Source: Massilia violaceinigra (lineage in GTDB: Bacteria > Pseudomonadota > Gammaproteobacteria > Burkholderiales > Burkholderiaceae_D). Taken from it: 64,000 bases of DNA. A program made the translations under genes and the position numbers. Every line of letters begins with the position of its first letter. The first letter of the stretch is position 1. Shown here piece by piece: positions 7,122 through 29,320 of this stretch. The notes beneath the pieces are model-generated. The model had not been told where the DNA came from. It saw only the letters and a list, made by a program, of their open reading frames with translations, and searched no databases. The stretch lies in assembly GCF_002752675.1 (NCBI RefSeq), contig NZ_CP024608.1, positions 1,612,001 through 1,676,000 of the forward strand, given 5' to 3'.

Positions 7122-7841
7122 ATGGACTTGATCACAATCGCCAGTGTTGGCATGCAAAGCGACCAGGCGCGGATGGATGGCATCAGCCACAACATCGCCA
7201 ACGTCCTGACCCCGGGTTATAAGCGCCAGGTTTCCGTGACGCCAACTTTCCAGGCGCAGATGCTGGGCGCGCAAAGCGAGCGCGCGGCGCAGTCGGCCCC
7301 GCTTCCGCGCGTGTCGATCGACCCAACTGCCGGCCCGATGCGCCACACGGGCAACACGCAGGACGTGGCGATCGAAGGCGACAGCTTCTTTGAAGTCAAT
7401 ACCGCCGACGGTCCGGCCTTTACCCGTCAGGGCAGCCTGCGGGTCGATGTCCAGGGCCGCCTGGTTGGCCCCCATGGCTTTCCCGTGATGGGCAGCGGCG
7501 GCGAGATCGTGCTGGCCAATACGCCCTTCACCATCGCCCCGAATGGCGACGTGCGCCAGGATGGCCGCGTGGTGGGCCAGCTCAAGCGCGTGCGTTTCGA
7601 GTCGGCCTCTGCGCTCACTCCGCTTGGCAACAGCCTGTATCAGCAGGGCGGGGCGCGCGTGGCCGACGCCATGAACAAGGATCCCTTGCGCATCGGTTTC
7701 CAGGAAGGCTCGAACGTCAGTTCGCCCCAGGAAATGGTGCGGATGACGGAAACGGTGCGCCATTTCGAGGCGCTGTCCAAAATTGTCCAGGGCTATGACG
7801 AGTCCCTGGAAAAAACCATCCGCAAGCTCGGGGATTTCTGA
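7122..7841 (+). CDS. flgF: flagellar proximal rod protein FlgF
   Basis: 239 residues. The N-terminus has the flagellar rod/hook signature ISHNIANVLTPGYKR (about 22-36), the middle has VAIEGDSFFEV, and the C-terminus has EGSNVSSPQEMVRMT. FlgF forms the proximal rod with FlgB and FlgC outside the inner membrane. It is called FlgF rather than FlgG because it is shorter, ends in ...KTIRKLGDF, and the next gene is a clear FlgG. It opens the operon, and flgG follows 5 bp later. This flgF-flgG-flgA-flgH order resembles alphaproteobacterial operons more than the flgBCDEFGHIJ order usual in gamma- and betaproteobacteria. Confidence 0.88.
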   Translation: MDLITIASVGMQSDQARMDGISHNIANVLTPGYKRQVSVTPTFQAQMLGAQSERAAQSAPLPRVSIDPTAGPMRHTGNTQDVAIEGDSFFEVNTADGPAFTRQGSLRVDVQGRLVGPHGFPVMGSGGEIVLANTPFTIAPNGDVRQDGRVVGQLKRVRFESASALTPLGNSLYQQGGARVADAMNKDPLRIGFQEGSNVSSPQEMVRMTETVRHFEALSKIVQGYDESLEKTIRKLGDF

Positions 7842-7846
7842 CAGTT

Positions 7847-8626
7847 ATGAACGATTCACTTTACATTGCCGCCACCGGCATGCACATGCAGCAAAAGAAT
7901 GTCGACACCATTTCGAACAACCTGGCCAATGTGAACACGCCCGGTTTCAAGAAAGGCAAAGTCAGCTTCGAAGACCTGGTCTACCGCGACATGGGTGGCG
8001 CCACCAGCGCCATCGAGGCTGGCGGCCAGCGCCTGTGGCAGGGCAGCGGCGTGGCCATGTCGGCCATCCTCAAGTCTTTCGTCGCCGGCCAGCTCAAGAA
8101 AACCGACCTGCCGCTCGACGTCGCCATCGAAGGCGATGGCTTCTTTGAAGTGGTGGCGCAGGAGGGCGTGTCCGCCTTCAGCCGCGGCGGCTCGCTGATG
8201 GTCGACAAGGATGGCTTCCTGGCCACCTCCGGCGGCCAGATACTGAAACCGGCCATCCACATCGGCCTCGATGCCAAGGAAATCAGCATCAAGCCCGATG
8301 GCCGGGTGCTGGTGCGCACGCGCGACGGCGGCGACAGTCTCGAAGCCGGCCGTATCGAGCTGGTGCGTTTTTCAGATACCACTGGCCTCACGCCCATCGG
8401 CGGCAATCTGTACAAGCCGACCGAGCGTTCGGGCGACCCGATTTACGGCCGAGCCGGCGACGAGGGCGTCGGCACCCTGGCCCAAGGCTTCGTAGAAGGC
8501 TCGAACGTCAACCTGGTCGATGAAATGGTCGATCTGATGGTGGCGCAGCGCGCCTACGAAAGCAGCGTCAAGATCATCCAGGCATCCGACGAGATGCTGG
8601 CAATGAGCAATAACCTACGCAAGTAA
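7847..8626 (+). CDS. flgG: flagellar distal rod protein FlgG
   Basis: 259 residues, the normal FlgG length. The N-terminal signature is ISNNLANVNTPGFKK, then VAIEGDGFFEV at about residue 90. The C-terminal EGSNVNLVDEMVDLM and YESSVKIIQASDEML blocks are the coiled-coil pair typical of distal rod proteins. FlgG builds the rod through the P and L rings, so the apparatus is expected to cross the outer membrane. The start follows flgF by 5 bp, suggesting translational coupling. flgA follows after 3 bp. Confidence 0.93.
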   Translation: MNDSLYIAATGMHMQQKNVDTISNNLANVNTPGFKKGKVSFEDLVYRDMGGATSAIEAGGQRLWQGSGVAMSAILKSFVAGQLKKTDLPLDVAIEGDGFFEVVAQEGVSAFSRGGSLMVDKDGFLATSGGQILKPAIHIGLDAKEISIKPDGRVLVRTRDGGDSLEAGRIELVRFSDTTGLTPIGGNLYKPTERSGDPIYGRAGDEGVGTLAQGFVEGSNVNLVDEMVDLMVAQRAYESSVKIIQASDEMLAMSNNLRK

Positions 8627-8629
8627 GGC

Positions 8630-9568
8630 ATGCAACGCTGGTGCGCCATGGTGGCGCTGGTGTTCTGGACGCCGTACGGCGCGGCCCAGCCGCTCGCGCT
8701 CGAACTGCGTCCGGCGGCCCTGCTCGCGCAAGCGCGCGTCACCCTGGCCGACGTGGCCATCGTGGCGGGCGGCGAGCCGCTGGCAACGCTCGAACTGGGC
8801 GTGGCACCGCGCATCGGCTATGTCGAGCGCCTGAGCCGCGAGCAGATCGGCCTGATGATCCGGCGCCGCGCCGGCGTGACGCGCGAGATTGCCTGGAGCG
8901 GCGCCGCCAGCGTCGCCCTGCAGAGCCAGTCGCAAACGATTGGCTCGGAAGCCCTGGCGCAGGTGGCCGTGCGCAGTGTGCTGGCAGCCTGGCAAGCGCG
9001 TTTGCCAGGCATCACGGTGGACCTCGCGGCGCCGCCCGGCGCGCTGGAAGTGCCGTTTGGCGCGATTGAGATCAAGGCGCGCGCGCTGAGCGAGCCACGG
9101 CTGGCGGCGCGCATGCCGGTGTGGATCGACATCCGGGTCGACGGCGCCGTGTACCGCTCGCTGGTGGTGGCGCTGAACGTCACGGCGCGCCAGCCGGTGC
9201 ATGTGGCGCGCCGCGCGCTCGCTGCCGGGACCTTGGCCGATGCCGGGGATTTCGAGCAGCGCGACGAGAATGTCGTCGCCCTCGACGCCATGCCGGCGGC
9301 CCCGGCTGCGGCCGGCTGGCGCATGCGCCGGGCGCTGGCGGCGGGACAGATACTGACCCAGGCCAGCTTGCCGCAGCCAGGGATGATTTTTCGCGGTGAC
9401 ACGGTGCGCTTGCTGATTTTGCGCGGCGCCGTTGAAATCGAAGCGCGCGGCGTGGCGCTGGCCGATGCCGCGCCCGGCCAGCCGCTGGCGGTCCGGTTGC
9501 CGAATGCCAGCGAGCCGGTCAATGCACGGGTCAGCCCCACCGGGGCTGTCGTGATGGAAATGGAATGA
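8630..9568 (+). CDS. flgA: P-ring assembly chaperone FlgA
   Basis: 312 residues with an N-terminal hydrophobic signal peptide (about 1-19, ending GAAQ) and a C-terminal SAF/ChapFlgA region (about 190-312) beginning QPVHVARRALAAGTL and containing FRGDTVRLLILRGAVEIEA. FlgA escorts FlgI subunits in the periplasm while the P ring is built. It sits between flgG and flgH, next to the two ring genes it serves. The start is 3 bp after the flgG stop. Confidence 0.88.
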   Translation: MQRWCAMVALVFWTPYGAAQPLALELRPAALLAQARVTLADVAIVAGGEPLATLELGVAPRIGYVERLSREQIGLMIRRRAGVTREIAWSGAASVALQSQSQTIGSEALAQVAVRSVLAAWQARLPGITVDLAAPPGALEVPFGAIEIKARALSEPRLAARMPVWIDIRVDGAVYRSLVVALNVTARQPVHVARRALAAGTLADAGDFEQRDENVVALDAMPAAPAAAGWRMRRALAAGQILTQASLPQPGMIFRGDTVRLLILRGAVEIEARGVALADAAPGQPLAVRLPNASEPVNARVSPTGAVVMEME

Positions 9569-9577
9569 GGAATTGGA

Positions 9578-10153
9578 ATGAGTCGTAAACGGATGATGGT
9601 CCTGATCTTGCTCGCGCTGGGCTGCGGCGCTCCCGCGCTTGCCGAAAGCTTGTACAAGCCGGGCACCTATCAGGCGCTGACGTCCGACCTGCGCCAGCGC
9701 AAGGCGGGCGACCTGATCACGGTGATGGTGTACGAGACCGCCAGCGCGACCAGCACCGCCGACACCCGCAGCGGACGCGACGCCGATGTCGGGCTGGGCG
9801 TGCAAACCCCGCATCGCGGTTATGCCGCCGGTATCCAGGCGCGCAACCATACCGACGGCGGCGGCCAGACCCGGCGCGAAGGCAAGGTGCTGGCGCAGAT
9901 TACGGTGGCGATCCGCGAAATCACCGAGAGCGGCGACTTGCTGGTGGCCGGCGAACAGGTGCTCGATATCAACAATGAGACCCAGCAAATTTCGGTGGAA
10001 GGGCGCATCCGGCCGCAGGACGTGTCCGACGCCAACGTGGTGCTGTCGACCCGCATCGCGAATGCGCGGATTCGTTATTCCGGCCAGGGCGACCTGGCCG
10101 ACAAGCAGCGTCCGGCCTGGTGGCAGCGCTTTCTGACCCTGTTTGGAATCTAA
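9578..10153 (+). CDS. flgH: flagellar L-ring protein FlgH (short form)
   Basis: 191 residues, shorter than the usual 220-240. After the signal sequence comes SLYKPGTYQALTSDLRQR, then AGDLITVMVYETASATS, and the C-terminal block VEGRIRPQDVSDANVV. All match the FlgH core that forms the outer-membrane L ring. The start ATG has a good ribosome site (AGGAATTGGA). The lipobox is imperfect: a Cys at residue 16 in LALGCGAP has A rather than L/V/I at -3, and ALA at about 20-22 looks like an ordinary signal-peptidase site. Confidence 0.88.
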   Translation: MSRKRMMVLILLALGCGAPALAESLYKPGTYQALTSDLRQRKAGDLITVMVYETASATSTADTRSGRDADVGLGVQTPHRGYAAGIQARNHTDGGGQTRREGKVLAQITVAIREITESGDLLVAGEQVLDINNETQQISVEGRIRPQDVSDANVVLSTRIANARIRYSGQGDLADKQRPAWWQRFLTLFGI

Positions 10154-10157
10154 GGCC

Positions 10158-11282
10158 ATGTTCAAGCGTACCTTACTCCTGGCCGGCTTGCTGGTCCTGT
10201 CTCTCTCCGCCGCCGTGTCGGCCTCGGCCGAGACGATCCGCATCAAGGATATCGGCAAGATGGCCGGCTGGCGCGACAATGCGCTCAGCGGCTACGGCCT
10301 GGTCACCGGCCTGGCCGGGACCGGCGACTCCTCGCGCAACAAGGCAACCCGGCAATCGATCGCCAACATGCTGTCGCGCTTCGACATCACCATCGGCGCC
10401 GACGATGTCCAGAGCCGCAACGTGGCCGCGGTCATGGTCACCGCCACCCTGAGCCCGTTCGCGCGGGCCGGCGACGCCATCGATGTGACGATCACCTCGA
10501 TCGGCGACGCCCGCAGCCTGGTCGGCGGCGCCCTGATGCTGGCGCCCCTCAAGGGCGCGGACGGCAAGATCTACGCGCTGAGCCAGGGCGCGCTGTCGGT
10601 GGGCGGCTACAAATACGACATGAATGGCAACGTGGTGCAGAAAAATCACCCCACCGTCGCCTCGATTCCCGGCGGCGCCACGGTCGAAGTGGGCCTGGTC
10701 AACGATATGCGAAGCGGCCGCGACAGCGTTACCTTCGTCCTGTCCGAACCCGACTTCACCACCGCCAGCCGGGTCGCCAGCGCCATCAATGCGCGCCTGG
10801 GCAGCTCCGTGGCGGTAGCCCTGGATGCGTCCGGGGTCGAGATCCAGATCCCGGCGGCGCGCCGCAACCGCCTGACCGATTACCTGACCGACATCGAAAA
10901 CGTGATGGTCGAGCCGGACCGGCGCGCGCGCGTGGTCATCAACGAGCGCACCGGCACCGTGGTGTCGGGCGGCGATGTGCGCATTTCAAAAGTGGTGGTG
11001 TCGCACGGCGAACTGAAGGTGTCGATCGTCACCGACAACACCGTCTCGCAGCCGCTGCTGGTGCGCCAGGTGGGGAGCGGAGTGCAGTCGCTGCCGGTGG
11101 CCAACAGCCGGGTCAGCGTCGACGAACGCGGCGAGACCGGCTTCGTCGCCCCCAACGATACCACCGTGGCCGACCTGGTGCGCTCGCTCACGCGCCTGAA
11201 AACGAATACGCGCGACATCATCTCGATTTTGCGCGCCGTGAAGGCGGCCGGCGCCCTGCACGCCGAACTGATCGTCCAGTAA
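10158..11282 (+). CDS. flgI: flagellar P-ring protein FlgI
   Basis: 374 residues, standard FlgI length. A signal peptide (about 1-24, ending ASA) precedes IRIKDIGKMAG and GYGLVTGLAGTGDSS, the highly conserved FlgI opening. The C-terminal NTRDIISILRAVKAAGALH is also typical. FlgI forms the periplasmic ring around the rod. The ATG at 10158 is preferred over an upstream in-frame start at 10143 because it begins the signal peptide directly and lies after the flgH stop. A perfect palindrome follows the gene. Confidence 0.95.
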   Translation: MFKRTLLLAGLLVLSLSAAVSASAETIRIKDIGKMAGWRDNALSGYGLVTGLAGTGDSSRNKATRQSIANMLSRFDITIGADDVQSRNVAAVMVTATLSPFARAGDAIDVTITSIGDARSLVGGALMLAPLKGADGKIYALSQGALSVGGYKYDMNGNVVQKNHPTVASIPGGATVEVGLVNDMRSGRDSVTFVLSEPDFTTASRVASAINARLGSSVAVALDASGVEIQIPAARRNRLTDYLTDIENVMVEPDRRARVVINERTGTVVSGGDVRISKVVVSHGELKVSIVTDNTVSQPLLVRQVGSGVQSLPVANSRVSVDERGETGFVAPNDTTVADLVRSLTRLKTNTRDIISILRAVKAAGALHAELIVQ

Positions 11283-11300
11283 GTATTTATGCAGCGACCG

Positions 11301-11318
11301 GCGCAGGCCGGCCTGCGC
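11301..11318. repeat. 18-bp perfect palindrome between flgI and flgB
   Basis: GCGCAGGCCGGCCTGCGC is a perfect 18-bp palindrome in the 66-bp gap between flgI and flgB. It has no T-tract, so it is not a classical terminator. It could be an mRNA processing or stabilising hairpin, or a protein-binding site splitting the operon into two transcripts. Confidence 0.6.
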
Positions 11319-11348
11319 AACCGTATCCGAACCGTGGAGTATTGAACC

Positions 11349-11729
11349 ATGTTATCCATTATTGACAGCAACGCCAGTGCCTTGCTCAGCCTCGCGCTCG
11401 ATGCCGCGGGCATGCGCCAGCAAGCCATTGCGCACAACATCGCCAATGTCAACACCCCCGGGCACCAGCGTGTCAGCGTCAGTTTCGAAAGCCGCATGGC
11501 GGCGCTGCGCAGCCCCGACGGCCAGGTCGCGTCCCCCTCGCTGGCCGACCTGTCGAACTTCCGTCCGGCCTTCGAGTACGCCCAGATCGGCAGCGCCGAC
11601 AACGCCGTGGCGCTCGACCAGGAAATGGCGCAACTGTCCGAAACCACCTTGCACCACCAGGCGCTGCTCAAGGCGCTCAACAAGCACTTTTCCCTGATCG
11701 GGATGGCCATTTCGGAAGGCAAGCGCTGA
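11349..11729 (+). CDS. flgB: flagellar basal-body rod protein FlgB
   Basis: 126 residues. IAHNIANVNTPGHQR (about 27-41) is the rod signature, and the C-terminus (DQEMAQLSETTLHHQALLK) matches FlgB, which sits at the base of the rod. A GGAG site lies 8 bases before the ATG. The stop overlaps the flgC start by one base, so the two are translationally coupled, as in most flagellar systems. Confidence 0.88.
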   Translation: MLSIIDSNASALLSLALDAAGMRQQAIAHNIANVNTPGHQRVSVSFESRMAALRSPDGQVASPSLADLSNFRPAFEYAQIGSADNAVALDQEMAQLSETTLHHQALLKALNKHFSLIGMAISEGKR

Positions 11730-12166
11730 TGGACTACCACGCCGCCTTCCAGATCAGCGCCAGCGGCATGGCCGTTGAAAAAATGCGCATGGACGTCACC
11801 GCCGCCAATATCGCCAACATGAACAGCGCCGGTACATCGGCCTCGTCGGTGTACCAGCCGCAGCGCGTGCTCTCGAGCCCGAATGCGCTCAGCTTCGCCC
11901 AGCAGTTCGGCCAGATGACGGCCGTGCAGGGCGGTGGCGTGCGCGTTACCTCGGTCGAGTCGCAGGCGGTGGCGCCGCGCCTGGTCTACGAGCCGGGCCA
12001 CCCGTATGCCGACCCGAAAGGGATGGTCGCTTATCCCGGCGTCAATCATAGCGCCGAGATGCTGAATTTGAATACCGCGCTGCGCGCCTACGAAGCCAAT
12101 GTGGCGGCCATGACGGCTGCCAAGGCCATGGCCGCGCGCACGCTCGACATCGGAGGTCAGCAATGA
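11729..12166 (+). CDS. flgC: flagellar basal-body rod protein FlgC
   Basis: 145 residues. The N-terminal signature is recognisable but degenerate (VTAANIANMNSAGTS). The middle VYEPGHPYADPKGMVAYPGV and the C-terminal NTALRAYEANVAAMTAAKA are classic FlgC. It is a proximal rod subunit. The start overlaps the flgB stop by one base and the end overlaps fliE by 4 bp. Confidence 0.9.
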   Translation: MDYHAAFQISASGMAVEKMRMDVTAANIANMNSAGTSASSVYQPQRVLSSPNALSFAQQFGQMTAVQGGGVRVTSVESQAVAPRLVYEPGHPYADPKGMVAYPGVNHSAEMLNLNTALRAYEANVAAMTAAKAMAARTLDIGGQQ

Positions 12167-12465
12167 GTATCGATGCCATCGCCGCGGTGGGCGCCGCGGT
12201 CCCCGCCGAAACGTTCCTGCCGGCCAGCGCACCGGCCGCGCCGGCCGCCGGCTTTGCCAACTGGTTCGCGCAGGAAGTCGGCGCGGTCAACACCAGCCTG
12301 GTCAATGTCGACCAGGAGGTCAGGAAACTGGCCGTCGGCGAGACCCAGAGCTTGCACGAAGTCATGATTCATATGGAAGAAGCGAAACTCTCGTTTCAAT
12401 TGTTGGCACAGGTACGCACCAAGTTGCTCGAGGCGTACCAAGAAGTCATGCGGATGCAGGTTTAG
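12163..12465 (+). CDS. fliE: hook-basal-body connector FliE
   Basis: 100 residues, FliE-sized. The C-terminal half (SLHEVMIHMEEAKLSFQLL, then QVRTKLLEAYQEVMRMQV) is the conserved FliE domain linking the MS ring and export gate to the rod. The N-terminal 40 residues are Ala/Pro rich. It overlaps flgC by 4 bp (ATGA) and is followed 9 bp later by fliF, the usual flgB-flgC-fliE-fliF module. Confidence 0.92.
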   Translation: MSIDAIAAVGAAVPAETFLPASAPAAPAAGFANWFAQEVGAVNTSLVNVDQEVRKLAVGETQSLHEVMIHMEEAKLSFQLLAQVRTKLLEAYQEVMRMQV

Positions 12466-12474: not shown

Positions 12475-13935
12475 GTGGGATCAATGCAAGAAAAATGGGA
12501 AGGCCTCGCGCCACGCGCTCGCACCGGCATCGTTGCCGGCGTGCTGGTGATCGTCGCGCTGATGGCGGCACTCGGCTTCTGGGCCTACCGCACCGAGTAT
12601 CAAGTCCTGTTCGCCGACATCGCCCCGCGCGATGCGGCCGCCATGACGAGCGAACTCGACAAGATGAAGACGCCGTACCGGCTGGCCGACGGCGGCCACA
12701 CCATCCTGGTGCCGAAAGAGCTGGTCTACAAGACCCGCCTTCAGCTGATGGGTACCGACGTGCCGCTGCACGGCGCGGTCGGCTTCGAAGTGTTTAACAA
12801 TGCCGATTTCGGCATGACCGAGTTTGTGCAGAAGGTCAACTATCAACGGGCGACCCAGGGGGAGCTGACCCGCACCATCCTGTCGATCGATGATATCCAG
12901 GCCGCGCGCGTGCATCTGGCGATTCCGGAGCAGGGCTTGTTCAAGAAGACCATGACCAAGCCCAAGGCCTCGGTCACCCTGACCATGAAGCCGGGCCGGG
13001 TGCTCAGCGCCGAACAGGTGGCCGGCATCCAGCGTCTGGTGGCCGCCTCGGTGCCCGACATCGCCAGCGCCGATGTGACCCTGCTCGACCAGCATGGCGT
13101 GGCGCTCACGCGCGTGGCCAATGGCGAGAACCCGGGCGAAGGCGCATCGAGCCAGCTCGACGCCAAGCGCAGCACCGAAGATTACCTGGTCAAGAAAGTG
13201 ACCCAGGTGCTCGACCGCACCTTCGGCGCCGGCCAGGCCATCGCCAGCGTGGATGTGGTGCTGAACCTGGACCAGAGCAAGGTCACGACCGAAGAAGTGT
13301 TGCCAGCCAAGGGCGCCGTCAGCGACGGCAGCCCGACCGGCGTCATGGTGCGCGAGCGCTATACGGTGCGCGAAGGCGACGCCGGCGCCAACGCCCCGGC
13401 TGCGGCCAAGGGCGGCAGCGGCAGCACCACCTCCGAGTCCGACTACAACGTCGGACGGCGCGTCGAGCAGTTGGCCGTCGCCAGCGGCACGGTGCGGCGC
13501 ATGACCATCGCGGTCGTGGTGCGCCAGGCCCTGAGCGACGAACAATTGGCCAGGCTGAAGGAAGTCGTGTCGCTTGCCGCCGGCCTGAACGGCGGGCGCG
13601 GCGACGCCATCGTGGTCAACTCGATGCAAACCCTGGTCAGTGCCAGTCCGGCTGCCGATGTTGTGCCGGCCGCGTCGGAACCGGCGACGGCCGCGCCCTT
13701 GCCGGCCAAGCGTGGACCGGACGCCGATTCGGCCGCCGTGGTGATCGGCGTGCTGCTGGTCGTGCTGGCGATCGTGCTGGCGGCGGCAGCGCTGGCCTGG
13801 CGCGCGTCGCGCCGCCGCGCGCAGCCGGTGCGCACCGCGCTGAGCGACGCCGAGCGGCGCGCGATGCTCGATAACGTGCGCAACTGGATCGACCGTCCGG
13901 CCGATGCGGCGCCTGGCCCTGGAGCGCCGCGATGA
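12475..13935 (+). CDS. fliF: MS-ring protein FliF
   Basis: 486 residues, slightly short for FliF (usually about 530-570). One membrane segment lies at about 18-38. The YscJ/FliF ring region contains GFEVFNNADFGMTEFVQKVN and the helical block TMKPGRVLSAEQVAGIQ. A second membrane segment lies at about 420-445, and a short C-terminal tail retains MLDNVRNWI, the FliG-binding end. The GTG start at 12475 is chosen because AGGAG lies 6 bases upstream; the next ATG (12484) would be 15 bases away. Confidence 0.93.
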   Translation: MGSMQEKWEGLAPRARTGIVAGVLVIVALMAALGFWAYRTEYQVLFADIAPRDAAAMTSELDKMKTPYRLADGGHTILVPKELVYKTRLQLMGTDVPLHGAVGFEVFNNADFGMTEFVQKVNYQRATQGELTRTILSIDDIQAARVHLAIPEQGLFKKTMTKPKASVTLTMKPGRVLSAEQVAGIQRLVAASVPDIASADVTLLDQHGVALTRVANGENPGEGASSQLDAKRSTEDYLVKKVTQVLDRTFGAGQAIASVDVVLNLDQSKVTTEEVLPAKGAVSDGSPTGVMVRERYTVREGDAGANAPAAAKGGSGSTTSESDYNVGRRVEQLAVASGTVRRMTIAVVVRQALSDEQLARLKEVVSLAAGLNGGRGDAIVVNSMQTLVSASPAADVVPAASEPATAAPLPAKRGPDADSAAVVIGVLLVVLAIVLAAAALAWRASRRRAQPVRTALSDAERRAMLDNVRNWIDRPADAAPGPGAPR

Positions 13936-14453
13936 GCGGCCACCGCCAGGCCGCGCTTGCGCTGTATGGCGTGAGTACCGGCGACCAGGAAGCCATCCTG
14001 GCCGAACTGCCTGCGCACGATCAGGAAGTATTGCGCGCCTATCTGGCCGAACTTGCCGAACTCGGTTTCGATGGCGGCGCCGTGCCGGCCCTGGTGTCGA
14101 CCACGGCTCCGGACCGCGCCCCCGCCAGTGCCGCCGAGCGCTTGCGCGGCGCCGACGCGCACGCGCTGTTCGAGGCCGTCGGCAATGAGCCGGCCAGCCT
14201 GATCGCCGCCTTGCTGGCGATCGAAGCGTGGCCGTGGGCGGCCGACCTGCTCGACCTGCTCGCTGCCCCGCAGCGCGCACTGGTGCGCGGCGCGATCGAC
14301 CGCAGCGGCGCCGTGGCGCCCGAACGCAGCGCATTCCTGCTCGAGGCGGTCGCCGCCGCACTGGCGCGCACGCGCACGCGCAGCGTGGCACCGGCGCTGG
14401 TGCGCTCGCCCTTGTCCGCACTGATCGCCAGGGTGTCCGCATGGGTGAAATAA
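13932..14453 (+). CDS. reduced FliG-like switch protein lacking torque domain
   Basis: 173 residues in the slot between fliF and fliH where fliG (about 330 residues) normally sits. Residues 5-50 (RQAALALYGVSTGDQEAIL) fit the FliG N-domain that binds FliF. Residues 70-145 (NEPASLIAALLAIEAW, AADLLDLLAAPQR) fit the FliG middle-domain pattern, with the EHPQ motif changed to NEPA. No residues remain for the charged C-terminal torque domain that meets the stator. The gene overlaps fliF by 4 bp and fliH by 13 bp, so it looks intact, not decayed. The FliG assignment is by pattern and position only. Confidence 0.6.
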   Translation: MSGHRQAALALYGVSTGDQEAILAELPAHDQEVLRAYLAELAELGFDGGAVPALVSTTAPDRAPASAAERLRGADAHALFEAVGNEPASLIAALLAIEAWPWAADLLDLLAAPQRALVRGAIDRSGAVAPERSAFLLEAVAAALARTRTRSVAPALVRSPLSALIARVSAWVK

Positions 14454-15241
14454 TCCGCGCCGCCGCCGTTACCGGCTTGCGCCAGTTGCGCCGTCATCAG
14501 GAAGCGCCGGCACGCCCCGCCGCGCCGGCGCCCGCAACCGCAACCGCGCTGGCCGCCACGCTCGCCGCGCCCGCGCCGCGCCCGGCCGCGCCGCCGCCAA
14601 CGGTGTTGCCGGTGGCCGTGGCGGTGGCTGCGCAACCGGCGCCCGCCGCGCCAACGGCGCCGCTGATGCCGACCTTGCCGGAAGTGCTTGAGGCCGAGCT
14701 GAAAAAACTGCGCGCGCAAAACGAGCGCGACTGCGCGGCCGCGCGCGCCGAGGCCGAACGGCGCGGTCATGCCGCCGGCCTGGAACAGGGCGAAGCCGAA
14801 GGCCGCCAACTCTTGCAAGCCCAGGTCAGCCGGGTCAAGTCGCTGGCGCTGCAGCTGGTGCAGGCCAAGCCGGCACTGGTCGAGCAGGCCGAAGACGATA
14901 TCGTCGAGCTGGCGTTCGCCGCGCTGTGCCGCATCCTGGGCGAGCGCGCGGCCAGCCGCGACACCCTGATGCAGGTGGTGCGCGAGGCCGCGGCTGCCAC
15001 GCGCGAGCGCGAACACGTCGGCATCCGCCTGCATCCGGACGATCTGGCGCTGCTGCGCCAGGGCGAAGATGGACCGGAACCGCATGTGCGCTACAGCGCC
15101 GACGCCACCATTGCGCTGGGCGGCTGCATCGTCGACAGTTCCACCGGCACCCTGGACGCGCGCCTGGAAACCCAGATCGAGCGCTTGCGCGCGACCCTGG
15201 TGGCGGTGCGCGCCGCCCGCCTGCAGCAGGAAGAGATCTGA
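14441..15241 (+). CDS. fliH: flagellar export ATPase regulator FliH
   Basis: 266 residues. An Ala/Pro-rich N-terminus (20-75) leads to a Glu/Arg-rich helix with GHAAGLEQGEAEG repeats and a C-terminal FliH/SctL domain (LHPDDLALL, then GGCIVDSSTGTLDARLETQ). FliH binds FliI and links it to the C-ring. The ATG at 14441 overlaps the previous gene by 13 bp. An upstream in-frame extension would overlap far more and has no FliH character. TGATG couples it to fliI. Confidence 0.85.
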   Translation: MGEIIRAAAVTGLRQLRRHQEAPARPAAPAPATATALAATLAAPAPRPAAPPPTVLPVAVAVAAQPAPAAPTAPLMPTLPEVLEAELKKLRAQNERDCAAARAEAERRGHAAGLEQGEAEGRQLLQAQVSRVKSLALQLVQAKPALVEQAEDDIVELAFAALCRILGERAASRDTLMQVVREAAAATREREHVGIRLHPDDLALLRQGEDGPEPHVRYSADATIALGGCIVDSSTGTLDARLETQIERLRATLVAVRAARLQQEEI

Positions 15242-21988: not shown

Positions 21989-22765
21989 ATGAAATCCGAT
22001 GCCGCCCTCATTGTGCCTGGTCCGGCCGCCGCAGCCGGCGCCGCAGCGTCGGCGACGGAGCGCCTGTGGGCCCGTTTCGTGCAGGCGCGCGAGGCATCGG
22101 TGCGCGAGCAGCTGGTCGGCGCCTACCTGGGGTTCGCGCGCATGATGGCCGCCAAGACCTACGCCCGGCGGGTGTTTTCGGAGATGGAATTCGCCGACTA
22201 CCTGCAATACGCCAGGGTCGGGCTGATCGAGGCGATCGACCGCTTCGATCCCGCGCGCGGCTACAAGTTCGAAACCTATGCGGCGGCGCGCATCAGCGGC
22301 GCGGTCATGTCGGGCATCGAGACGTCGAGCGAAATCCAGCAGCAGATCGGCGCGCGCCGCCGCGTGCTGGCCCAGCGCGTCGAGTCGCTGCGCGGCGACG
22401 CGGCGCCGCCCACCGGGCCGGAAGCGGTGTTCGCCCGCCTGGCCGAGCTGGCGGTCGGGCTGGCGGTCGGCTTTGCGCTGGAGGGCTCGGACATGCACCG
22501 CGCCGAGGATGCGCAATACGCCGACAATAGTTATCATGGTGTGCAGCTCAAACAGTGCCAGTCCAGGGTGCGCGCCATGGTGGAGGCGTTGCCCGCCACG
22601 CAAAAACAAGTGATCTACTCGCATTATTTGCAACAAGTACGATTCGACGACATTGCCGCCAGCCTGGACCTGTCGCGCAGCCGGATCGCCCAGATTCACC
22701 GCGATGCGCTGGCCACCCTGCGGTCGCGGCTGCCGCCGTCCGCACAGGTCGATTTGCGCTGTTGA
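21989..22765 (+). CDS. fliA: RNA polymerase sigma-28 factor FliA-like
   Basis: 258 residues. Region 2 is at about 72-103 (ARVGLIEAIDRFDPARGYKF, ETYAAARISGA) and region 4 at about 205-246 (LPATQKQVIYSHYLQQVRFD, then SRSRIAQIHRDAL). This is the FliA family, which directs late flagellar genes. No anti-sigma flgM lies in the window. Its presence inside the export operon suggests that the system has its own downstream regulon. The start follows fliP by 3 bp with a TGAGG ribosome site. Confidence 0.85.
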   Translation: MKSDAALIVPGPAAAAGAAASATERLWARFVQAREASVREQLVGAYLGFARMMAAKTYARRVFSEMEFADYLQYARVGLIEAIDRFDPARGYKFETYAAARISGAVMSGIETSSEIQQQIGARRRVLAQRVESLRGDAAPPTGPEAVFARLAELAVGLAVGFALEGSDMHRAEDAQYADNSYHGVQLKQCQSRVRAMVEALPATQKQVIYSHYLQQVRFDDIAASLDLSRSRIAQIHRDALATLRSRLPPSAQVDLRC

Positions 22766-22831: not shown

Positions 22832-23467
22832 ATGACAAGCACCACACTTTCCATGCTCGACCAGGCTGAACTGATGCAGCTGGCCCTCAATGCCAGCGGC
22901 GCCGACGATTCCGGCGCCGCCCTCGGCTACCTGAAGGAAGCGGTGTCGCGTCCCGACGCCAGCGGCATCGCCCACTACCTGCTGGGCGCCGAATACGCCC
23001 AGATCAAGATGTACGAGCGTGCCGTGGGCGAGATGGAGGCGGCGCTGGCGCTCGATCCGACCTTGTCGATTGCACGTCTGCAACTCGGCTTATTGTGGCT
23101 CACCGGCGGCGGCGTCGAGCAGGCCGCGCTGGTGTTCGCCCCGCTCGACGAGCTGGCCGCCGGCGATCCCCTGCGCCTGTTCGGGCGCGGCTTGCGCCAC
23201 ATGATCGGCGAAGAATTGGCGGACGCCAGGGCTTGTCTGCAGGAGGGCATCCGCGCGAACCTGAGCAACGCGCCGTTGAATGTCGATATGCAGCGCATTG
23301 TGAACGAACTCGAACGCATCGAAGCGGGCCAGCCGGCCGGCATGCCGGCGGGGGCCGTGGTGCCGGCAGCGGAGCCGGCGGAGCAGCCGGAAGAGCAGGC
23401 GGAAGAGGCGGCGGGCGGCGCGCACCACCTGTTCCTGTCGGCCTATACCGGCAATACGGCGCCCTGA
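22832..23467 (+). CDS. TPR protein in flagellar-type operon
   Basis: 211 residues. At least two tetratricopeptide motifs are visible at about 45-125 (AHYLLGAEYAQIKMYERAVG, ALALDPTLSIARLQLGLLWL), followed by a helical region. The tail is acidic and Pro/Glu/Ala-rich and ends HLFLSAYTGNTAP. There is no signal peptide, so it is cytoplasmic. TPR proteins of this size serve as class II chaperones in type III secretion, and that is a possible role here. It is the first of three genes inserted between fliA and fliQ. Confidence 0.7.
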   Translation: MTSTTLSMLDQAELMQLALNASGADDSGAALGYLKEAVSRPDASGIAHYLLGAEYAQIKMYERAVGEMEAALALDPTLSIARLQLGLLWLTGGGVEQAALVFAPLDELAAGDPLRLFGRGLRHMIGEELADARACLQEGIRANLSNAPLNVDMQRIVNELERIEAGQPAGMPAGAVVPAAEPAEQPEEQAEEAAGGAHHLFLSAYTGNTAP

Positions 23468-23498: not shown

Positions 23499-23879
23499 AT
23501 GAGTGCTCCGATCGGCAGCGTGAACGACCTGGTCTCCGTGATCCGGGCCCAGCTCGGCGCGCGCGTGCAGGGTGCGCCGCTGAAAAAGACGGCGGCGCGC
23601 AAGCAAGCTGGCGGCGCCGGGCGCTATGCGCAGGAAAACCTGGGGCAACTGGTTCAACTGCGCATTGCGCAGATTGGCGTCGACGATCCGCAGCGCGGGC
23701 GCAAGGCGTTCCGGGTGTTCCTGGAGGCGGTGCTGTTGTCGCACTTCGGCGAAGACCTGGTCGGCGATCCGGGCTTTTTCCAGATGGTCGAGAAGGTGCA
23801 GGATGCGCTCGACGCCGATGCCGCTTGCCGCCAGATGATCGGCAGTGCGATCGAGCATCTGTTGTCAAAAAACACTTAG
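23499..23879 (+). CDS. uncharacterised cytoplasmic protein in flagellar-type operon
   Basis: 126 residues, not recognised. The N-terminus (1-50) is basic and probably flexible. Residues 50-120 are predicted helical with YAQENLGQLVQLRIAQIGVD, VFLEAVLLSHFGEDLVGDPG and FFQMVEKVQDALDADAACRQ. No signal peptide or membrane segment. Lying between two TPR genes in the export operon suggests a chaperone, adaptor or secretion regulator. Function is unknown. Confidence 0.6.
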   Translation: MSAPIGSVNDLVSVIRAQLGARVQGAPLKKTAARKQAGGAGRYAQENLGQLVQLRIAQIGVDDPQRGRKAFRVFLEAVLLSHFGEDLVGDPGFFQMVEKVQDALDADAACRQMIGSAIEHLLSKNT

Positions 23880-23949
23880 GCGCGCCTTCGCGGGCAGCGC
23901 CATTTCATAGCACTTAATCAGCTCTTCACACATGACACGGGTAGCGACT

Positions 23950-25098
23950 ATGCAGGCAGATCACACCACACTCCAGGACACGGTTGCGCAATTGGCGCGC
24001 ACAGAAGGCTATCTGCTGGCCGATCCGGGCAATACCGACCTGCTGGCGCGCGCCATCGACCAGAGCCTGGCCGCCGGCGCGCTGGAACAGGCCCTGGCCC
24101 ACGTGCAAGACGCCATGGCGCGCTATCCGGCCGATCCGTTTTTCCGCTACCGCCACGCGCATGTGCTCAATGCCCTCAAGCAATGGGGCGAGGCTGCCGT
24201 TATCTACAGTGCGCTGCTGGAACAGCATGCCGACGTGGGCATCGCGTCGAGCCTGGCGCAGTGCCTGGTGCAATTGGGATTGCACCAGGGGGCGCTCGAC
24301 ACCATGACGCCCTGGCTGGCCGATCCCGCGCTCGATCCGGCGGCGGTGACCGCGCTGGTGCGCGCCTACCACCACACCGGCGCGCTGGACAAGGCGATCG
24401 CCTTTGCCACCGAGCACCACGCACGCCTGGCCGGCGAGCCCGCGTTCCTGGGCGCGGCCAGCCTGGCTTGCCTGGATCAGGGCGACCTGGAGCGGGCCGG
24501 CGCGTGGAGCGCGGCGGCGCTGGCGCTCGATGCGCAGGCGGCCGAGGCGCTGGTGGTGCGGGCGACCATCGCCCTGGCCCAGGCCGACAGCGAAGGCGCG
24601 ATCGCGGCCTTCAAGCAGGTGCTGGCCAGCCATCCGGCCGAAGGGCGCAGCTGGTCCGGCCTGGGCATGGCCAGCCTGCTGCGGCGCGACTTGGGCGGCG
24701 CGGTGGTGCAGCTGGAACAGGCGTTGGCCTATATGCCGGGCCACATCGGCACCTGGCACGCGCTCGGCTGGTGCAAGCTGTTCGGCGACGATCTCGATGG
24801 GGCCGAAGCCGCCTTTACCAGCGCCATGGCGCTGGACCGCAATTTCGGCGAGACCCATGGCGCGGTGGCCGTGGTCGCCGCGCTCAAGGGACAGCGCGGC
24901 ATCGCCGAGGCAGCCATCGAACGGGCGCTGCGGCTCGACCGCGAGGGCTTGTCGGCGCGTTACGCGCAGGCCGTGCTGTCGGGCGAGGCGGGCGACCCCG
25001 GGCGTTTGCGCAGTGTCGTCCTGGACGCCATGGGCGGACGGGCCGGCCCCACCGGCGAAGACATGGCCCAGATGGTGGCACGCCTCGCGCGCCACTGA
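23950..25098 (+). CDS. multi-TPR protein in flagellar-type operon
   Basis: 382 residues from the ATG at 23950 (an in-frame ATG at 23932 would add six). Tandem TPR units run through most of the protein: ALEQALAHVQDAMARYPADP, QGDLERAGAWSAAALALDAQ, HALGWCKLFGDDLDGAEAAF, GIAEAAIERALRLDREGLSA. There is no signal peptide. It probably acts as a scaffold or chaperone for the export system, since it ends 41 bp before fliQ. No close family was recognised. Neither start has a strong ribosome site. Confidence 0.7.
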   Translation: MQADHTTLQDTVAQLARTEGYLLADPGNTDLLARAIDQSLAAGALEQALAHVQDAMARYPADPFFRYRHAHVLNALKQWGEAAVIYSALLEQHADVGIASSLAQCLVQLGLHQGALDTMTPWLADPALDPAAVTALVRAYHHTGALDKAIAFATEHHARLAGEPAFLGAASLACLDQGDLERAGAWSAAALALDAQAAEALVVRATIALAQADSEGAIAAFKQVLASHPAEGRSWSGLGMASLLRRDLGGAVVQLEQALAYMPGHIGTWHALGWCKLFGDDLDGAEAAFTSAMALDRNFGETHGAVAVVAALKGQRGIAEAAIERALRLDREGLSARYAQAVLSGEAGDPGRLRSVVLDAMGGRAGPTGEDMAQMVARLARH

Positions 25099-25139: not shown

Positions 25140-25406
25140 ATGCGTGCTGATCTTGCCTTGCAATTGCTGGGCGACGTGTTATGGAATGCGCTGCTCATTT
25201 CCGCGCCGCTTTTGGCGGTGACGCTGGTGGTGGGCTTGCTGGTGAGCGTGATCCAGGTCGTCACGCAGGTGCAGGAAACCTCGCTCACCTTCATTCCGAA
25301 GATTATCGCGGCGGTGATCGTGCTGATCGTGTGCGGCCCCTGGATGCTCAAGCGCCTGGTGGGGTTTTCGGTGAATTTGATCGCCAACATCCCTCATTAT
25401 TTCTGA
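25140..25406 (+). CDS. fliQ: flagellar export gate protein FliQ
   Basis: 88 residues with two membrane helices (LLISAPLLAVTLVVGLLVSV and a second at about 55-78), joined by IQVVTQVQETSLTFIPKI, the FliQ signature. It is part of the FliP-Q-R export gate. It is in the standard fliQ-fliR-flhB-flhA order, although separated from fliP. Confidence 0.95.
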   Translation: MRADLALQLLGDVLWNALLISAPLLAVTLVVGLLVSVIQVVTQVQETSLTFIPKIIAAVIVLIVCGPWMLKRLVGFSVNLIANIPHYF

Positions 25407-25421
25407 AACGGATGCCGTTAC

Positions 25422-26186
25422 ATGCTTGTCGATGTCGATCCTTCCTGGCTGATGGCGGTCTTTCTGGTGTCGGTGCGCATCGGCGTGCTGCTGATGCTTT
25501 CGCCGATCTTTACCGGGCTGGCCGGGCTGGTGACCGTGCGCGTGCTGCTGACCCTGGTGCTGAGCGTGATGCTGGTCGGCGCCCTCGGCATCAAGCCGGC
25601 GCCGCTGGCGCTGTCGATCGGCCCGGTCATCCTGGCCGCCATCGGCGAGCTGATGGTGGGCGCGGTGCTGGCGTTCGGCGTGTACGCGGCGTTCGGAGCG
25701 TTTTCGGTGGCTGGCAAGATTCTCGATATCCAGAGCGGTTTCGGCATCGGCAATGTCTACGATCCGGTCACCCGCGCCGGGGCGCCGCTGTTCGCGACCA
25801 TGCTGAACCTGGTGGCGGTGGCGGCCCTCTTCGGCATGGATGGGCACCACGCTTTCCTGCGCGGCATTGCATTTTCGCTGCAGCAGGTGCCGCCCGGGAC
25901 CGGCCTGGGCGCCCTCGACCCCGAGCCGGTGATCCGCCAGTTCGGCCTGATGTTTTCGCTTGGCGTGGCGCTGGCGATCCCGGTCATGCTGTGCCTGCTG
26001 CTGGTGGAAGTGGGGCTGGCCGTGGTGTCGCGCGTGCTGCCGCAGATGAACGTGGTGATCGTGCTGGTGCCGGTCAAGATTTTTGCCGGCCTGGCGCTGT
26101 TTGCGCTGACGATCGGGGTGCTCGGTCCGGCGATGGGGCGGGTGTATGCCTCGATCTTTATTTATTGGGAACAGGTGCTGCGCTAA
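25422..26186 (+). CDS. fliR: flagellar export gate protein FliR
   Basis: 254 residues, standard length, with about six membrane helices. Conserved blocks include FGVYAAFGAFSVAGKILDIQ, GFGIGNVYDPVTRAGAPLF and VGLAVVSRVLPQMNVVIVLV. It forms the gate with FliP and FliQ and contacts FlhB. The stop codon directly abuts the flhB ATG. Confidence 0.95.
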   Translation: MLVDVDPSWLMAVFLVSVRIGVLLMLSPIFTGLAGLVTVRVLLTLVLSVMLVGALGIKPAPLALSIGPVILAAIGELMVGAVLAFGVYAAFGAFSVAGKILDIQSGFGIGNVYDPVTRAGAPLFATMLNLVAVAALFGMDGHHAFLRGIAFSLQQVPPGTGLGALDPEPVIRQFGLMFSLGVALAIPVMLCLLLVEVGLAVVSRVLPQMNVVIVLVPVKIFAGLALFALTIGVLGPAMGRVYASIFIYWEQVLR

Positions 26187-27272
26187 ATGGCCGAACAAGA
26201 TGCCGACCTGTCGGAACAGGCAACGCCGCACAAGCTGGACGAGGCGCGCAAGAAGGGCTCGGTCGCCAAGAGCGCCGACTTCACCGCGACCATGATGCTG
26301 TGCGCGCTGGTGGTGACGGTGTACGGCAGCGGCTGGGATGCGCTGCGCCAGACCCTGCATCTGCAGCAGCGCATGCTCACGCGCGCCGGCCGGCTCGACT
26401 GGAGCGTGGATGGCATCGCCAACTGGACCGGGCAGATGCTGATCGAGATGCTGACCGTGCTCGGGCCGCTGTTCCTCACCCTGGCGGTGGTGGCGGTGGT
26501 GGCCAATCTGTTCCAGACCGGGCCGATCTTCAGTTTCCATCCCCTGATTCCGGACATGACGCGGATCAACCCGACGACCGGCTTCAAGCGCGTGTTTTCG
26601 ATGCGCACCCTGTTCGAAGCGGCCAAGAGCATCTTGAAGCTGCTGATCCTGGGCAGCGTGCTCTATACGCTGGTCAAGAATGCCATTCCCGGGCTGGTCG
26701 GGCTGACCCTGATGGAGCCGAAAGGCTATGCGCGCCTGCTCATTTCCCTGTCGGGCGGCTTGCTGGTGAAGATGGTGATGACCTTGCTGGTGATCGCGCT
26801 GCTCGACTTCATGTACACGCGCTGGGAGTTCAGCAAGCGCATGCGCATGAGCAAGCGCGACGTCAAGGATGAATCGAAGAACCGCGACGGCGACCCGCGC
26901 ATCCGCTCGCGCATCCGCGAGTTGCGCCAGGAAGTGCTCAAGCGCAGCAAGTCGATGGCCAAGGTGGCGTCGGCCGATGTGCTGATCACCAATCCGACCC
27001 ACCTGGCGGTGGCGCTGAGCTACAGCCATGGCAGTTCCGGCGCGCCCCAGGTTATCGCCAAGGGGGCGGGGGAAACGGCGCGCAAGATGCGCGAGCTGGC
27101 CGGCAGGCACCAGATCCCCATTGTGCAAAATAAATTATTGGCGCGGGCCTTGTTCCGCGAAGTCGACTACGACGGTTACGTGCCCGAAAAGCTGTATCCG
27201 CAAATCGCAAAAATCATGGTGTGGGTGTATTCAATGCGCGAAGTAAAGCGCGCTTCTCGAAGGATTGTGTAA
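26187..27272 (+). CDS. flhB: flagellar export switch protein FlhB
   Basis: 361 residues. The N-terminus QATPHKLDEARKKGSVAKS is typical. Four membrane helices lie at about 30-210. A charged linker (KRDVKDESKNRDGDPRIRSR) leads to the autocleavage motif NPTH at 269-272, intact. FlhB switches export specificity from rod/hook to later substrates, so an active site here implies a working switch even though no filament genes are present. It overlaps flhA by one base. Confidence 0.96.
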   Translation: MAEQDADLSEQATPHKLDEARKKGSVAKSADFTATMMLCALVVTVYGSGWDALRQTLHLQQRMLTRAGRLDWSVDGIANWTGQMLIEMLTVLGPLFLTLAVVAVVANLFQTGPIFSFHPLIPDMTRINPTTGFKRVFSMRTLFEAAKSILKLLILGSVLYTLVKNAIPGLVGLTLMEPKGYARLLISLSGGLLVKMVMTLLVIALLDFMYTRWEFSKRMRMSKRDVKDESKNRDGDPRIRSRIRELRQEVLKRSKSMAKVASADVLITNPTHLAVALSYSHGSSGAPQVIAKGAGETARKMRELAGRHQIPIVQNKLLARALFREVDYDGYVPEKLYPQIAKIMVWVYSMREVKRASRRIV

Positions 27273-29320
27273 TGTTGGCATTGCGTCGTATTTTCGGAGG
27301 GAATTCAGACCTCGTCCTGGCCTTGCTGGTGGTCGGCATTCTGACGGTCCTGTTCATTCCCATTCCCGCGGGCCTGCTCGACTTCCTGATCCTGGTCAAT
27401 GTCAGTTTCGCGATGCTGATCCTGCTGCTGACGTTTTACATCGGGCGCCCGGTGGAGTTTTCCACCTTTCCATCCCTGCTGCTCATCGCCACCCTGTTCC
27501 GGCTCTCCCTGAACGTGGCCGCAACGCGCCTGATCCTGACCGACGCCGATGCCGGTCGGGTGATCTCCGCGATCGGCTCGTACGTGGTCGGAGGCAATTA
27601 CGTGATCGGCATGATCGTGTTTCTGATCCTGGTGGTGGTGCAGTATGTGGTGGTCACCAGCGGCGCCCAGCGCGTGTCCGAAGTGGCGGCCCGCTTCACG
27701 CTCGACAGCATGCCCGGTCAGCAGATGAGCATCGATGCCGACCTGAACATGGGTTTCATCGACCAGGAAGAGGCCAAGCGGCGCCGCAAGATGCTGGAGA
27801 AGGAAACCGGCTTCTACGGCGCCATGGACGGTGCCAGTAAATTCGTCAAGGGCGACGCGATCGCCGGTATCGTGATCATGCTGATCAACATCATCGGCGG
27901 ACTGGTGATCGGCGTCATGCAGATGGGCATGCGCTGGGATGAAGCGCTCAAGACCTTTACCTTGCTGACGGTGGGCGACGGCATCGTGACCCAGGTTCCG
28001 GCGCTGGTGATCGCGGTCGGCACCGGCATCATCGTGACGCGCTCGGCGTCGGACGGCAACCTCAGCTCGGAAGTGCTGCGCCAGATGACGGCCTTTCCCA
28101 AGACCCTGTTCATCGTGGCCGGCGCGCTGGCGGTGCTGTTGTTCGTGCCGGGAATTCCATCGATTCCCGTGCTGGTGATTACCCTTGGCCTGTTCGGCGT
28201 GGCCATGCTGGTGCGCCGCAATGCCAAGTCGGCCGATGCCGGCGAGGCGAAGGATGAGAAGGACAAGGCCGGCGCCGGCGGCGAGCAGGATACCTATGAC
28301 TTGCTCAAGGTCGAGCCGGTCGAGGTCATGGTGGGAACCAACCTGGCGCCGCTGGTCAGCGGCGAGCAAACCCTGTTCATGGAGCGGATCGCCGCGATCC
28401 GCAAGCAATATGCGCTGGAATCGGGCATGGTGCTGCCGCGCGTGCGTTTCCGCGACATGCCCCAGCTCGGCGCCAACGCCTATGAACTGCACGTGTTCGG
28501 CGTGCTGGCCGGGCGTGGCGAGATCATGACCGACCGCACCTTGGCCATCCATGGCGGCGGCGAGGCGCGTCCGATCAAGGGCATCGAAACGCGCGAGCCG
28601 ACCTATGGCCTGCCCGCGATCTGGGTCGAGGATTCGGAAAAAGAGATGGCGCGCGCGGCGCGCTACACCCTGGTGGACGCCAGCACCGTGTTCATCACCC
28701 ACCTGAGCGAAGTGCTCAAGCAGCAGTCCGCGATGCTGCTCACGCGCACCGAAACGGACCGCTTGCTGCAGCGCATCCGCGATCAGCAGCCGGGTCTGGT
28801 CGAAGAGCTGGTGCCGACCATCCTGACGGTCAGCGACGTGCAAAAGATCCTGCAAAATCTGTTGAAGGAAAAAGTCTCGATTCGCAATCTGGAAGTGATC
28901 CTGGAAACCCTGGTCGACGTTGCGCGCAACAGCAAGGACTTGAGCTATCTGACCGAACTGGTGCGCCAGAAGCTGGGCCCGGCGATCTGCCAGGGGCTGC
29001 TGGGCGACCTGACGGCGCTCCATGTGCTCACGCTCGACCCGGCCATCGAGCAAGCGCTGATGCAAAGCGTGCGCGACGCCGATGCCGGCAGCACGATGGT
29101 GGTGGAACCGAAGTTTGCCGAACAGTTGCTGGGACGCCTGGCGACCCAGTCGGAACGCATGATGAAGGCCAGCATGCTGCCCGTGCTGTTGTGTTCACCT
29201 GACCTGCGCCGCCATATCCGCCTGCTGTGCGAACGCGTGGTGCCGCATATGCGCATCCTGTCGATGGCAGAAATTCCGAATTCGGTCAGCCTGAAGTCGT
29301 ACGCCACTGTCACTTTATAG
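27272..29320 (+). CDS. flhA: flagellar export apparatus protein FlhA
   Basis: 682 residues, standard length. The N-terminal half has about eight membrane helices and the FHIPEP family region (ARFTLDSMPGQQMSIDADLN, GFYGAMDGASKFVKGDAIAG). The C-terminal half is the cytoplasmic nonameric ring domain that receives chaperone-substrate complexes. The ATG at 27272 overlaps the flhB stop (TAATG); an in-frame start at 27221 would lie inside flhB. It is the last gene of the operon and its tail overlaps the convergent yidD-like gene by 11 bp. Confidence 0.96.
   Translation: MLALRRIFGGNSDLVLALLVVGILTVLFIPIPAGLLDFLILVNVSFAMLILLLTFYIGRPVEFSTFPSLLLIATLFRLSLNVAATRLILTDADAGRVISAIGSYVVGGNYVIGMIVFLILVVVQYVVVTSGAQRVSEVAARFTLDSMPGQQMSIDADLNMGFIDQEEAKRRRKMLEKETGFYGAMDGASKFVKGDAIAGIVIMLINIIGGLVIGVMQMGMRWDEALKTFTLLTVGDGIVTQVPALVIAVGTGIIVTRSASDGNLSSEVLRQMTAFPKTLFIVAGALAVLLFVPGIPSIPVLVITLGLFGVAMLVRRNAKSADAGEAKDEKDKAGAGGEQDTYDLLKVEPVEVMVGTNLAPLVSGEQTLFMERIAAIRKQYALESGMVLPRVRFRDMPQLGANAYELHVFGVLAGRGEIMTDRTLAIHGGGEARPIKGIETREPTYGLPAIWVEDSEKEMARAARYTLVDASTVFITHLSEVLKQQSAMLLTRTETDRLLQRIRDQQPGLVEELVPTILTVSDVQKILQNLLKEKVSIRNLEVILETLVDVARNSKDLSYLTELVRQKLGPAICQGLLGDLTALHVLTLDPAIEQALMQSVRDADAGSTMVVEPKFAEQLLGRLATQSERMMKASMLPVLLCSPDLRRHIRLLCERVVPHMRILSMAEIPNSVSLKSYATVTL

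Follow-up and report, generated by a model that had tools for sequence, protein, structure and literature searches.

What does a flagellum-type gene cluster do when motor and filament are missing from it? The question is raised by a stretch of 64,000 nucleotides (nt) of Massilia violaceinigra NZ_CP024608.1, referred to here as the window, from a genome of 7.53 Mb in two contigs. A first-pass annotation placed 28 tightly coupled flagellar genes at 7122-29320 and suggested a horizontally acquired, non-rotating hook-basal body used for secretion or surface attachment. These coordinates are right, yet the system extends further left, where a giant gene begins at 6713 on the minus strand and continues past the window's edge. 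This divergent giant RHS protein beside flgF, which the annotation had missed, is the main point of the locus. Quite probably, the locus encodes a non-rotating, filament-less, flagellum-derived type III secretion system (T3SS) dedicated to giant Rhs polymorphic toxins, which it would export. This reading builds on observations made on sequences, namely the parts list, the lost motor and filament parts, the co-inheritance with giants that share an N-terminal leader, a shared promoter-like motif, and the varied C-termini of the giants.

The 28-gene cluster and its missing parts

All 28 open reading frames (ORFs) are intact and lie on the plus strand, mostly overlapping or a few bases apart (Table 1). 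Each was scanned against Pfam, and the gene identities rest on these matches, which support FlgF, FlgG, FlgA, FlgH, FlgI, FlgB, FlgC, FliE, FliF, FliH, FliI, FlgE, FliN, FliO, FliP, FliQ, FliR, FlhB, and FlhA, as well as a sigma-70 factor and two TPR proteins. The scans agree with the first-pass account, which listed a rod, a hook, P and L rings, an MS ring, an ATPase, a sigma-28-like factor, and an export gate, here made up of FlhA, FlhB, FliO, FliP, FliQ, and FliR. For three of the 28 ORFs (13932-14453, the ORF in the FliK position, and 23499-23879), no Pfam match was obtained at E<=1. The absences reported earlier were also borne out: no stator, flagellin, FlgJ, FlgK, FlgL, FlgM, FlgN, FliD, FliS, or Che family appears among the Pfam matches of the 28 ORFs.

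The annotation had called for a genome-wide search for a second canonical cluster and for flagellin and stator genes. Two canonical clusters were found, and every match to flagellin (10 matches), MotA/ExbB (6), and FliG_C (2) lies outside the window. FlhA has three copies in the genome, one of them in this cluster, and the two FliG_C matches fall within the two canonical clusters. The window cluster therefore adds a third system of flagellar type to two ordinary ones and is not the sole flagellar locus, as the annotation's own case for refutation would have required.

The ORF between fliF and fliH (173 amino acids, aa) has no Pfam match on its own, and its orthologues are 169-210 aa long in 11 of 12 cases and 289 aa in one. 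Compared with 15 canonical FliG sequences by hhalign, it aligned at E 2.2e-4 (probability 45%) with template columns 13-194 of 341, a span that corresponds to the N and middle domains; the C-terminal domain, which generates torque, is absent. Under identical options, ten decoy families drawn from the same set of loci gave E-values of 0.13-0.77. Among 38 relatives, FliG_M was touched by six (best 4e-4) and FliG_N by four (best 0.009). Two results speak against this assignment: the same 38 relatives also touch MgtE_N (11, best 0.012) and RskA_N (5, best 0.0012), and a PDB profile search with their alignment returned chance-level nucleoprotein matches and no FliG. Because the scores are modest and that search found no FliG, the protein is called only probably a truncated FliG without the torque domain, in keeping with the earlier proposal of a torque-less, non-rotating machine. 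The C-terminal helix of FliF, presumably of the kind that binds FliG_N, is retained in most relatives.

Giant proteins and the distribution of their leader

The giant gene diverges from flgF, and its frame of 7,134 aa extends 14.7 kb left of the window, to genome position C1:1597309 (L015:5309, stop included). The protein contains RHS repeats, eleven DUF4214 stretches, a single Cys after the ATG, and, ahead of the last 433 residues, a LysM-like stretch and a DAFGNALG-type motif. By eye, its N-terminus has no obvious Sec signal, and it has no Pfam match to the PAAR or VgrG families. Giants range from 3,400 to 13,000 aa across loci, the plasmid-borne relatives having 12,948 aa (Undibacterium sp. 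YM2), 4,897 aa (Burkholderia ubonensis, conjugative plasmid), and 6,182 aa (Variovorax sp. PDNC026); among 62 database relatives, the medians are 2 Cys and a length of 4,874 aa. Stretches of 40-80 kb were read in ten other genomes of the family, and eight of these stretches include a protein with this N-terminus, whose first frame in one of the eight (G287) is only 738 aa. The giant of G304 runs off the stretch read, its start being found in the leader search, and no giant was seen in G258, where the contig stops on the fliQ side. Far from the cluster, the M. violaceinigra genome carries a second leader-type giant (C1:5709601-5733042), a frame of 7,814 aa with a partial leader-like match inside.

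An alignment of 14 sequences gives the leader as MVAIVSGNGLGL...LGQ.G...G...G...YVN...GNL..Q..D..L...G.D....RTYNSQG. Its first 30 residues look specific, and its second half resembles what we take to be the DUF6531 entry of Rhs proteins (a weak match in the window's giant).

Among 392 genomes of the family, FlhA of this type was defined by 60-100% identity, the next matches dropping to 42%. It occurs in 42 genomes, any FlhA match in 370, and the leader profile in 52. The leader was found in 42/42 genomes with this FlhA versus 10/350 without it (Fisher 2.6e-47, relatedness not corrected). It lies on the same contig, within 60 kb of flhA, in 28 of the 42; in the remaining 14, it is absent from the contig of flhA in 11 and 95-122 kb away in three. 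Several of the ten carry traces of the system: a 76% FlhA fragment in G044, FlgI at 63% in G034, and TPR or small-protein genes of the system adjoining the giant in G031 and G017. The match in G001 is partial (E 9.8e-4, residues 40-72 only) and probably not a true leader.

A set of 300 genomes of the order, which overlaps partly with the family set, contains this FlhA type in 11, of which nine lie outside the family. The leader profile matches 12 of the 300, made up of 9/11 with this FlhA and 3/289 others (G079, G633, and G603, the last partial); it is present in seven of the nine system genomes outside the family, with one partial match (G620). Across 398 genomes of the phylum, this FlhA was found in four (E<=1e-175), all of this order. 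Of 72,556 plasmids, the three records that match the leader from residue 1 are exactly the three that hold this FlhA, and three further records match its second part only. When one giant's leader was compared with 5.8 billion proteins, candidates being limited to 0.55-1.75 times its length, the search yielded 62 leader proteins (3,389-7,402 aa), 58 of them starting with MVA(I/V), whose named hosts include Massilia, Variovorax, and Ramlibacter.

Promoter-like motif, C-termini, and probable mobility

A shared promoter-like motif also links the giants. TAAAC-N16-GGAT precedes 29 of the 37 giant starts read, which include near-copies, and its GGAT lies 54-117 bases ahead of the start. All 29 show a spacing of 16, though 12-19 was allowed, and shuffles of two-base blocks gave a mean of 0.27 and a maximum of 3. 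The fuller form TAAAC-N16-GGATRNNTT occurs three times in the whole 7.53-Mb genome (reversed-pattern control, 0): upstream of the window's giant, upstream of the other leader gene at about 5.73 Mb, and at C1:5501659, which lies inside a long opposite-strand ORF and was taken as chance. The looser form was not found in 175 kb around the canonical clusters. Its matches away from giant starts in L030, L034, G411, and G463 were likewise taken as chance, and L036 has this looser form in a stretch that holds no giant. TAAA and GATA are presumably as far apart as in flagellar sigma-28 promoters, so the sigma factor of the cluster is the natural, putative reader of the motif. Two further arrangements were seen: in G153, the motif (site 64099, minus strand) stands just upstream of minus-strand tprB and faces away from a giant with its own copy, and in another genome, a relative of the sigma gene (G097:C8:77336-78055) lies directly upstream of an unlinked giant.

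C-terminal pieces were scanned for 9 of the 14 giants. A toxin-type family was matched above cut-off in two (N-acetylmuramidase, E 2.4e-63; PT-HINT, pretoxin-HINT, E 8e-26) and below cut-off only in three, the weaker matches being colicin pore-forming (1.5e-4), ParB_N (2e-4), HNH, and Tox-SHH. The giants of G235 and G323 have close N-termini and different C-termini, as expected of polymorphic toxins. As a candidate cognate immunity gene, a small ORF (84-218 aa) follows 9 of the 11 giants with readable downstream sequence, its start lying at -17 to +27 nt, at a GC content where chance ORFs are common. The small ORF behind the muramidase giant has a signal-peptide-like start, which would fit a periplasmic target. 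In G018 (C1:1175098-1189490), two tandem giants have near-identical leaders and different C-termini, one of them a muramidase.

The gene for TPR protein B precedes a giant in G232 (contig 11), as do tprA/tprB in G017. A role of this protein as chaperone of the giant stays weak, as no tprB was found nearby in 20 further loci, mostly of unlinked giants; one tprA and one sigma gene were nearby in these same 20.

In the FlhA tree that the annotation had asked for, the proteins of 22 loci group in a single clade (support 100/100) that excludes the two canonical copies of the M. violaceinigra genome, nine other flagellar rows, and two rows taken as injectisome (SctV), unannotated records that were labeled from 31-35% identity. 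Divergent relatives within this one clade share the reduced gene set and the short FlgD. A direct repeat of 430 bp (82.6% identity), by eye a yidD-like gene, flanks giant and cluster on both sides; on the left, the copy is located past the giant gene, about 16 kb outside the window, with purH and ruvCAB (names by eye) beyond it. The plasmid copies, the patchy presence (42/392), and the bounding repeats make horizontal spread of the cluster likely, as had been proposed. The GC content is 66.8% in the cluster, 61.7% in the giant gene, and 63-64% in the flanks, and base composition is not decisive as a sign of foreign origin.

Proposed mechanism, alternatives, and known systems

In the mechanism proposed here, the reduced C ring would serve as a sorting platform, and rod, rings, and open hook would form a conduit across both membranes. 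The giant protein would be a late substrate, recognized by its uncleaved N-terminal leader and possibly assisted in export by the TPR proteins. Its transcription would be driven by the cluster's own sigma factor, and its variable C-terminus would be a toxin aimed mainly at other bacteria.

Several observations weigh against so close a pairing of machine and toxin. The leader was not matched in two system genomes (G415 and G463), and the leader frames adjacent to the cluster in G228, G060, and G251 are short (97-160 aa). When eight system loci of other families were read over 26-60 kb, the leader was present in G564, G639, and perhaps G411; among seven named loci reaching about 3 kb beyond flgF, it was present in one. 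Conversely, no cluster was found in G079, G240, and G357, whose leader frames measure 401, 657, and 147 aa, or in G009, a genome that is 80% complete, and no system was found in G348, with a leader protein of 5,694 aa. In the one-contig genome of G633, leader proteins are present, FlhA was not matched within the limit applied, and FlgI reaches 41% only. Leader proteins are also recorded, as protein records alone, from Ralstonia solanacearum, Achromobacter xylosoxidans, Pseudomonas, Microbulbifer, Andreprevotia, Novosphingobium, and Flavisphingomonas. As far as seen in the data covered, the leader appears to be distributed more widely than the cluster, and some giants may leave the cell by canonical flagellar export or another route. 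Lastly, four of the nine C-termini have no Pfam match, that of the window's giant included.

Among the alternatives, the one that survives best is still unlikely. It holds that the hook-basal body is an attachment structure, that the giant leaves by another route, and that the two are neighbors because both serve surface life on a mobile island. The retained hook and rings, as well as the giants in some genomes without a detected cluster, would fit such a role; the co-occurrence of leader and this FlhA in all 42 genomes, the same leader and motif on unlinked giants in system genomes, and the conservation of export gate and ATPase do not. Between the two roles suggested in the first-pass annotation, the association with the giant protein, then unseen, points to secretion, and nothing found favors attachment over it. 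It is more doubtful still that ordinary flagellar export machines generally export leader giants, with this cluster only one of several. That idea could draw on the motif spacing, presumably shared with flagellar sigma-28 promoters, and on the leader giants of G348 and G633, genomes in which the FlhA or FlgI found was of canonical type only, but the leader occurs in only 52 family genomes against 370 with an FlhA match, and canonical flagella alone therefore do not go with it. A decaying flagellum relic, for which the missing stator, filament, and torque domain might be cited, is very improbable and already disfavored, given 28 intact ORFs and a reduced set and short FlgD shared by divergent relatives in one clade. 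Least credible is a secondary motility flagellum that borrows stators and flagellins from the two canonical clusters present, as the cluster lacks the FliG torque domain and the junction proteins FlgK/FlgL.

The dedicated toxin secretion system thus preferred would resemble the flagellar T3SS in rod, hook, P and L rings, MS ring, export gate, ATPase, and an FlhB with NPTH. In contrast to it, the cluster lacks the stator, the torque domain, the FliM middle domain, the filament, the junction proteins, and chemotaxis, and it has its own sigma factor, TPR proteins, giant partners, and a separate FlhA clade. With injectisomes it would share ancestry and the principle of a dedicated, non-rotating export machine. 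Unlike injectisomes, it keeps rod, hook, and P/L rings (FlgH and FlgI are present); no secretin family was matched among the 28 ORFs, and its FlhA does not group with the two presumed SctV rows. RHS/YD repeats and variable C-terminal domains, often with a small ORF behind, are features of Rhs polymorphic toxins, whether linked to a T6SS or not. The window's giant has such repeats, and its relatives have varying C-termini often followed by a small ORF; they differ in their length of 3,400-13,000 aa, their own leader, and the link with a flagellar machine, and the window's giant in the lack of PAAR.

Related cases are described in three publications. Lysobacter enzymogenes, which is non-flagellated, keeps flagellar export genes that export foreign flagellin (PMC7277350). 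It likewise has export genes without a flagellum; there, components are kept after flagellum loss, whereas here a separate, mobile third cluster goes with giant leader proteins. Enterobacterial flag-3 loci are also supernumerary flagellar clusters, but encode 46 of 47 primary flagellar and chemotaxis proteins, including the flagellin, Mot, and Che that the window cluster lacks (PMC7526173). A survey of polymorphic toxins describes a flagellar-operon RNase in Firmicutes and, in the passages covered, no pairing of a flagellar machine with giants of this type (PMC3482391). In literature searched by title and abstract opening (mostly non-subscription), none of the matches listed describes such a system, which is possibly a new class of flagellum-derived secretion system.

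We lean slightly towards a broader view of this secretion system, in which it represents a second conversion of a flagellum to secretion, independent of the injectisome: spread among Burkholderiales by plasmids and islands and equipped with a sigma factor and promoters of its own, it would fire giant Rhs toxins (3,400-13,000 aa) through an open hook at neighbors, and the several unlinked giants of a genome would form one regulon. If so, a flagellum-to-weapon transition separate from that of injectisomes exists in little-known form in soil and water bacteria, and giants annotated merely as 'YD repeat' or 'LysM' proteins have a likely export route. The system would also test whether a flagellar channel passes chains of >7,000 residues, and leader and motif would serve as handles for finding more substrates.

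Table 1. Features of the giant gene and the flagellum-type cluster in the window.
Feature	Position	Strand	Basis or remark
Giant RHS/YD-repeat protein, N-terminal part	1..6713	-	Open frame, RHS_repeat E 9e-133 in window
N-terminal leader and DUF6531-like entry (first 75 codons of giant)	6489..6713	-	Conserved among giants
Promoter-like motif TAAAC-N16-GGATACATT upstream of giant gene	6808..6837	-	Genome C1:1618808-1618837
FlgF-like rod protein	7122..7841	+	FlgE/F/G domains; FlgF by position
FlgG distal rod	7847..8626	+	Pfam
FlgA P-ring chaperone	8630..9568	+	Pfam
FlgH L-ring	9578..10153	+	Pfam
FlgI P-ring	10158..11282	+	Pfam
FlgB rod	11349..11729	+	Pfam
FlgC rod	11729..12166	+	Pfam
FliE	12163..12465	+	Pfam
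FliF MS ring	12475..13935	+	Pfam
Probable truncated FliG, N and middle domains, without FliG_C	13932..14453	+	Profile comparison
FliH	14435..15241	+	Pfam
FliI ATPase	15241..16551	+	Pfam; Walker A motif
FliJ-like	16548..17006	+	Weak Pfam match, below cut-off
ORF in FliK position	17006..18076	+	Position only; no Pfam or NCBIfam match
FlgD, N-terminal part only	18077..18481	+	Pfam
FlgE hook	18492..19673	+	Pfam
FliM-like, FliMN_C domain only	19673..20464	+	Pfam
FliN	20461..20814	+	Pfam
FliO	20817..21224	+	Pfam
FliP	21221..21985	+	Pfam
FliA/WhiG-like sigma factor	21989..22765	+	Pfam sigma-70; below FliA/WhiG NCBIfam cut-offs
TPR protein A (tprA)	22832..23467	+	Pfam
Small conserved protein travelling with system	23499..23879	+	Conserved among related loci; no Pfam match
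TPR protein B (tprB)	23932..25098	+	Pfam; weak SycD/LcrH-chaperone similarity
FliQ	25140..25406	+	Pfam
FliR	25422..26186	+	Pfam
FlhB with NPTH motif	26187..27272	+	Pfam
FlhA	27269..29320	+	Pfam
Right copy of 430-bp direct repeat	29563..29988		82.6% identity to left copy

Minor features of the cluster vary among loci. The small protein encoded at 23499-23879 has 189 relatives in the database, and no Pfam domain or informative name was found among the 120 of the 189 listed. A pattern search found the Walker A motif of FliI in 12 of 14 loci, and the NPTH of FlhB is kept in 10 of 14; the other four (G235, G323, G304, and L014) read NPTR (three) or NPVH (one). By eye, the FlgH of the window (9578-10153) is seemingly without a canonical lipobox, which is unusual in an L-ring protein. 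The FlgI annotation on the plasmid of Undibacterium sp. YM2 is split into two ORFs (L013:25309-26441).

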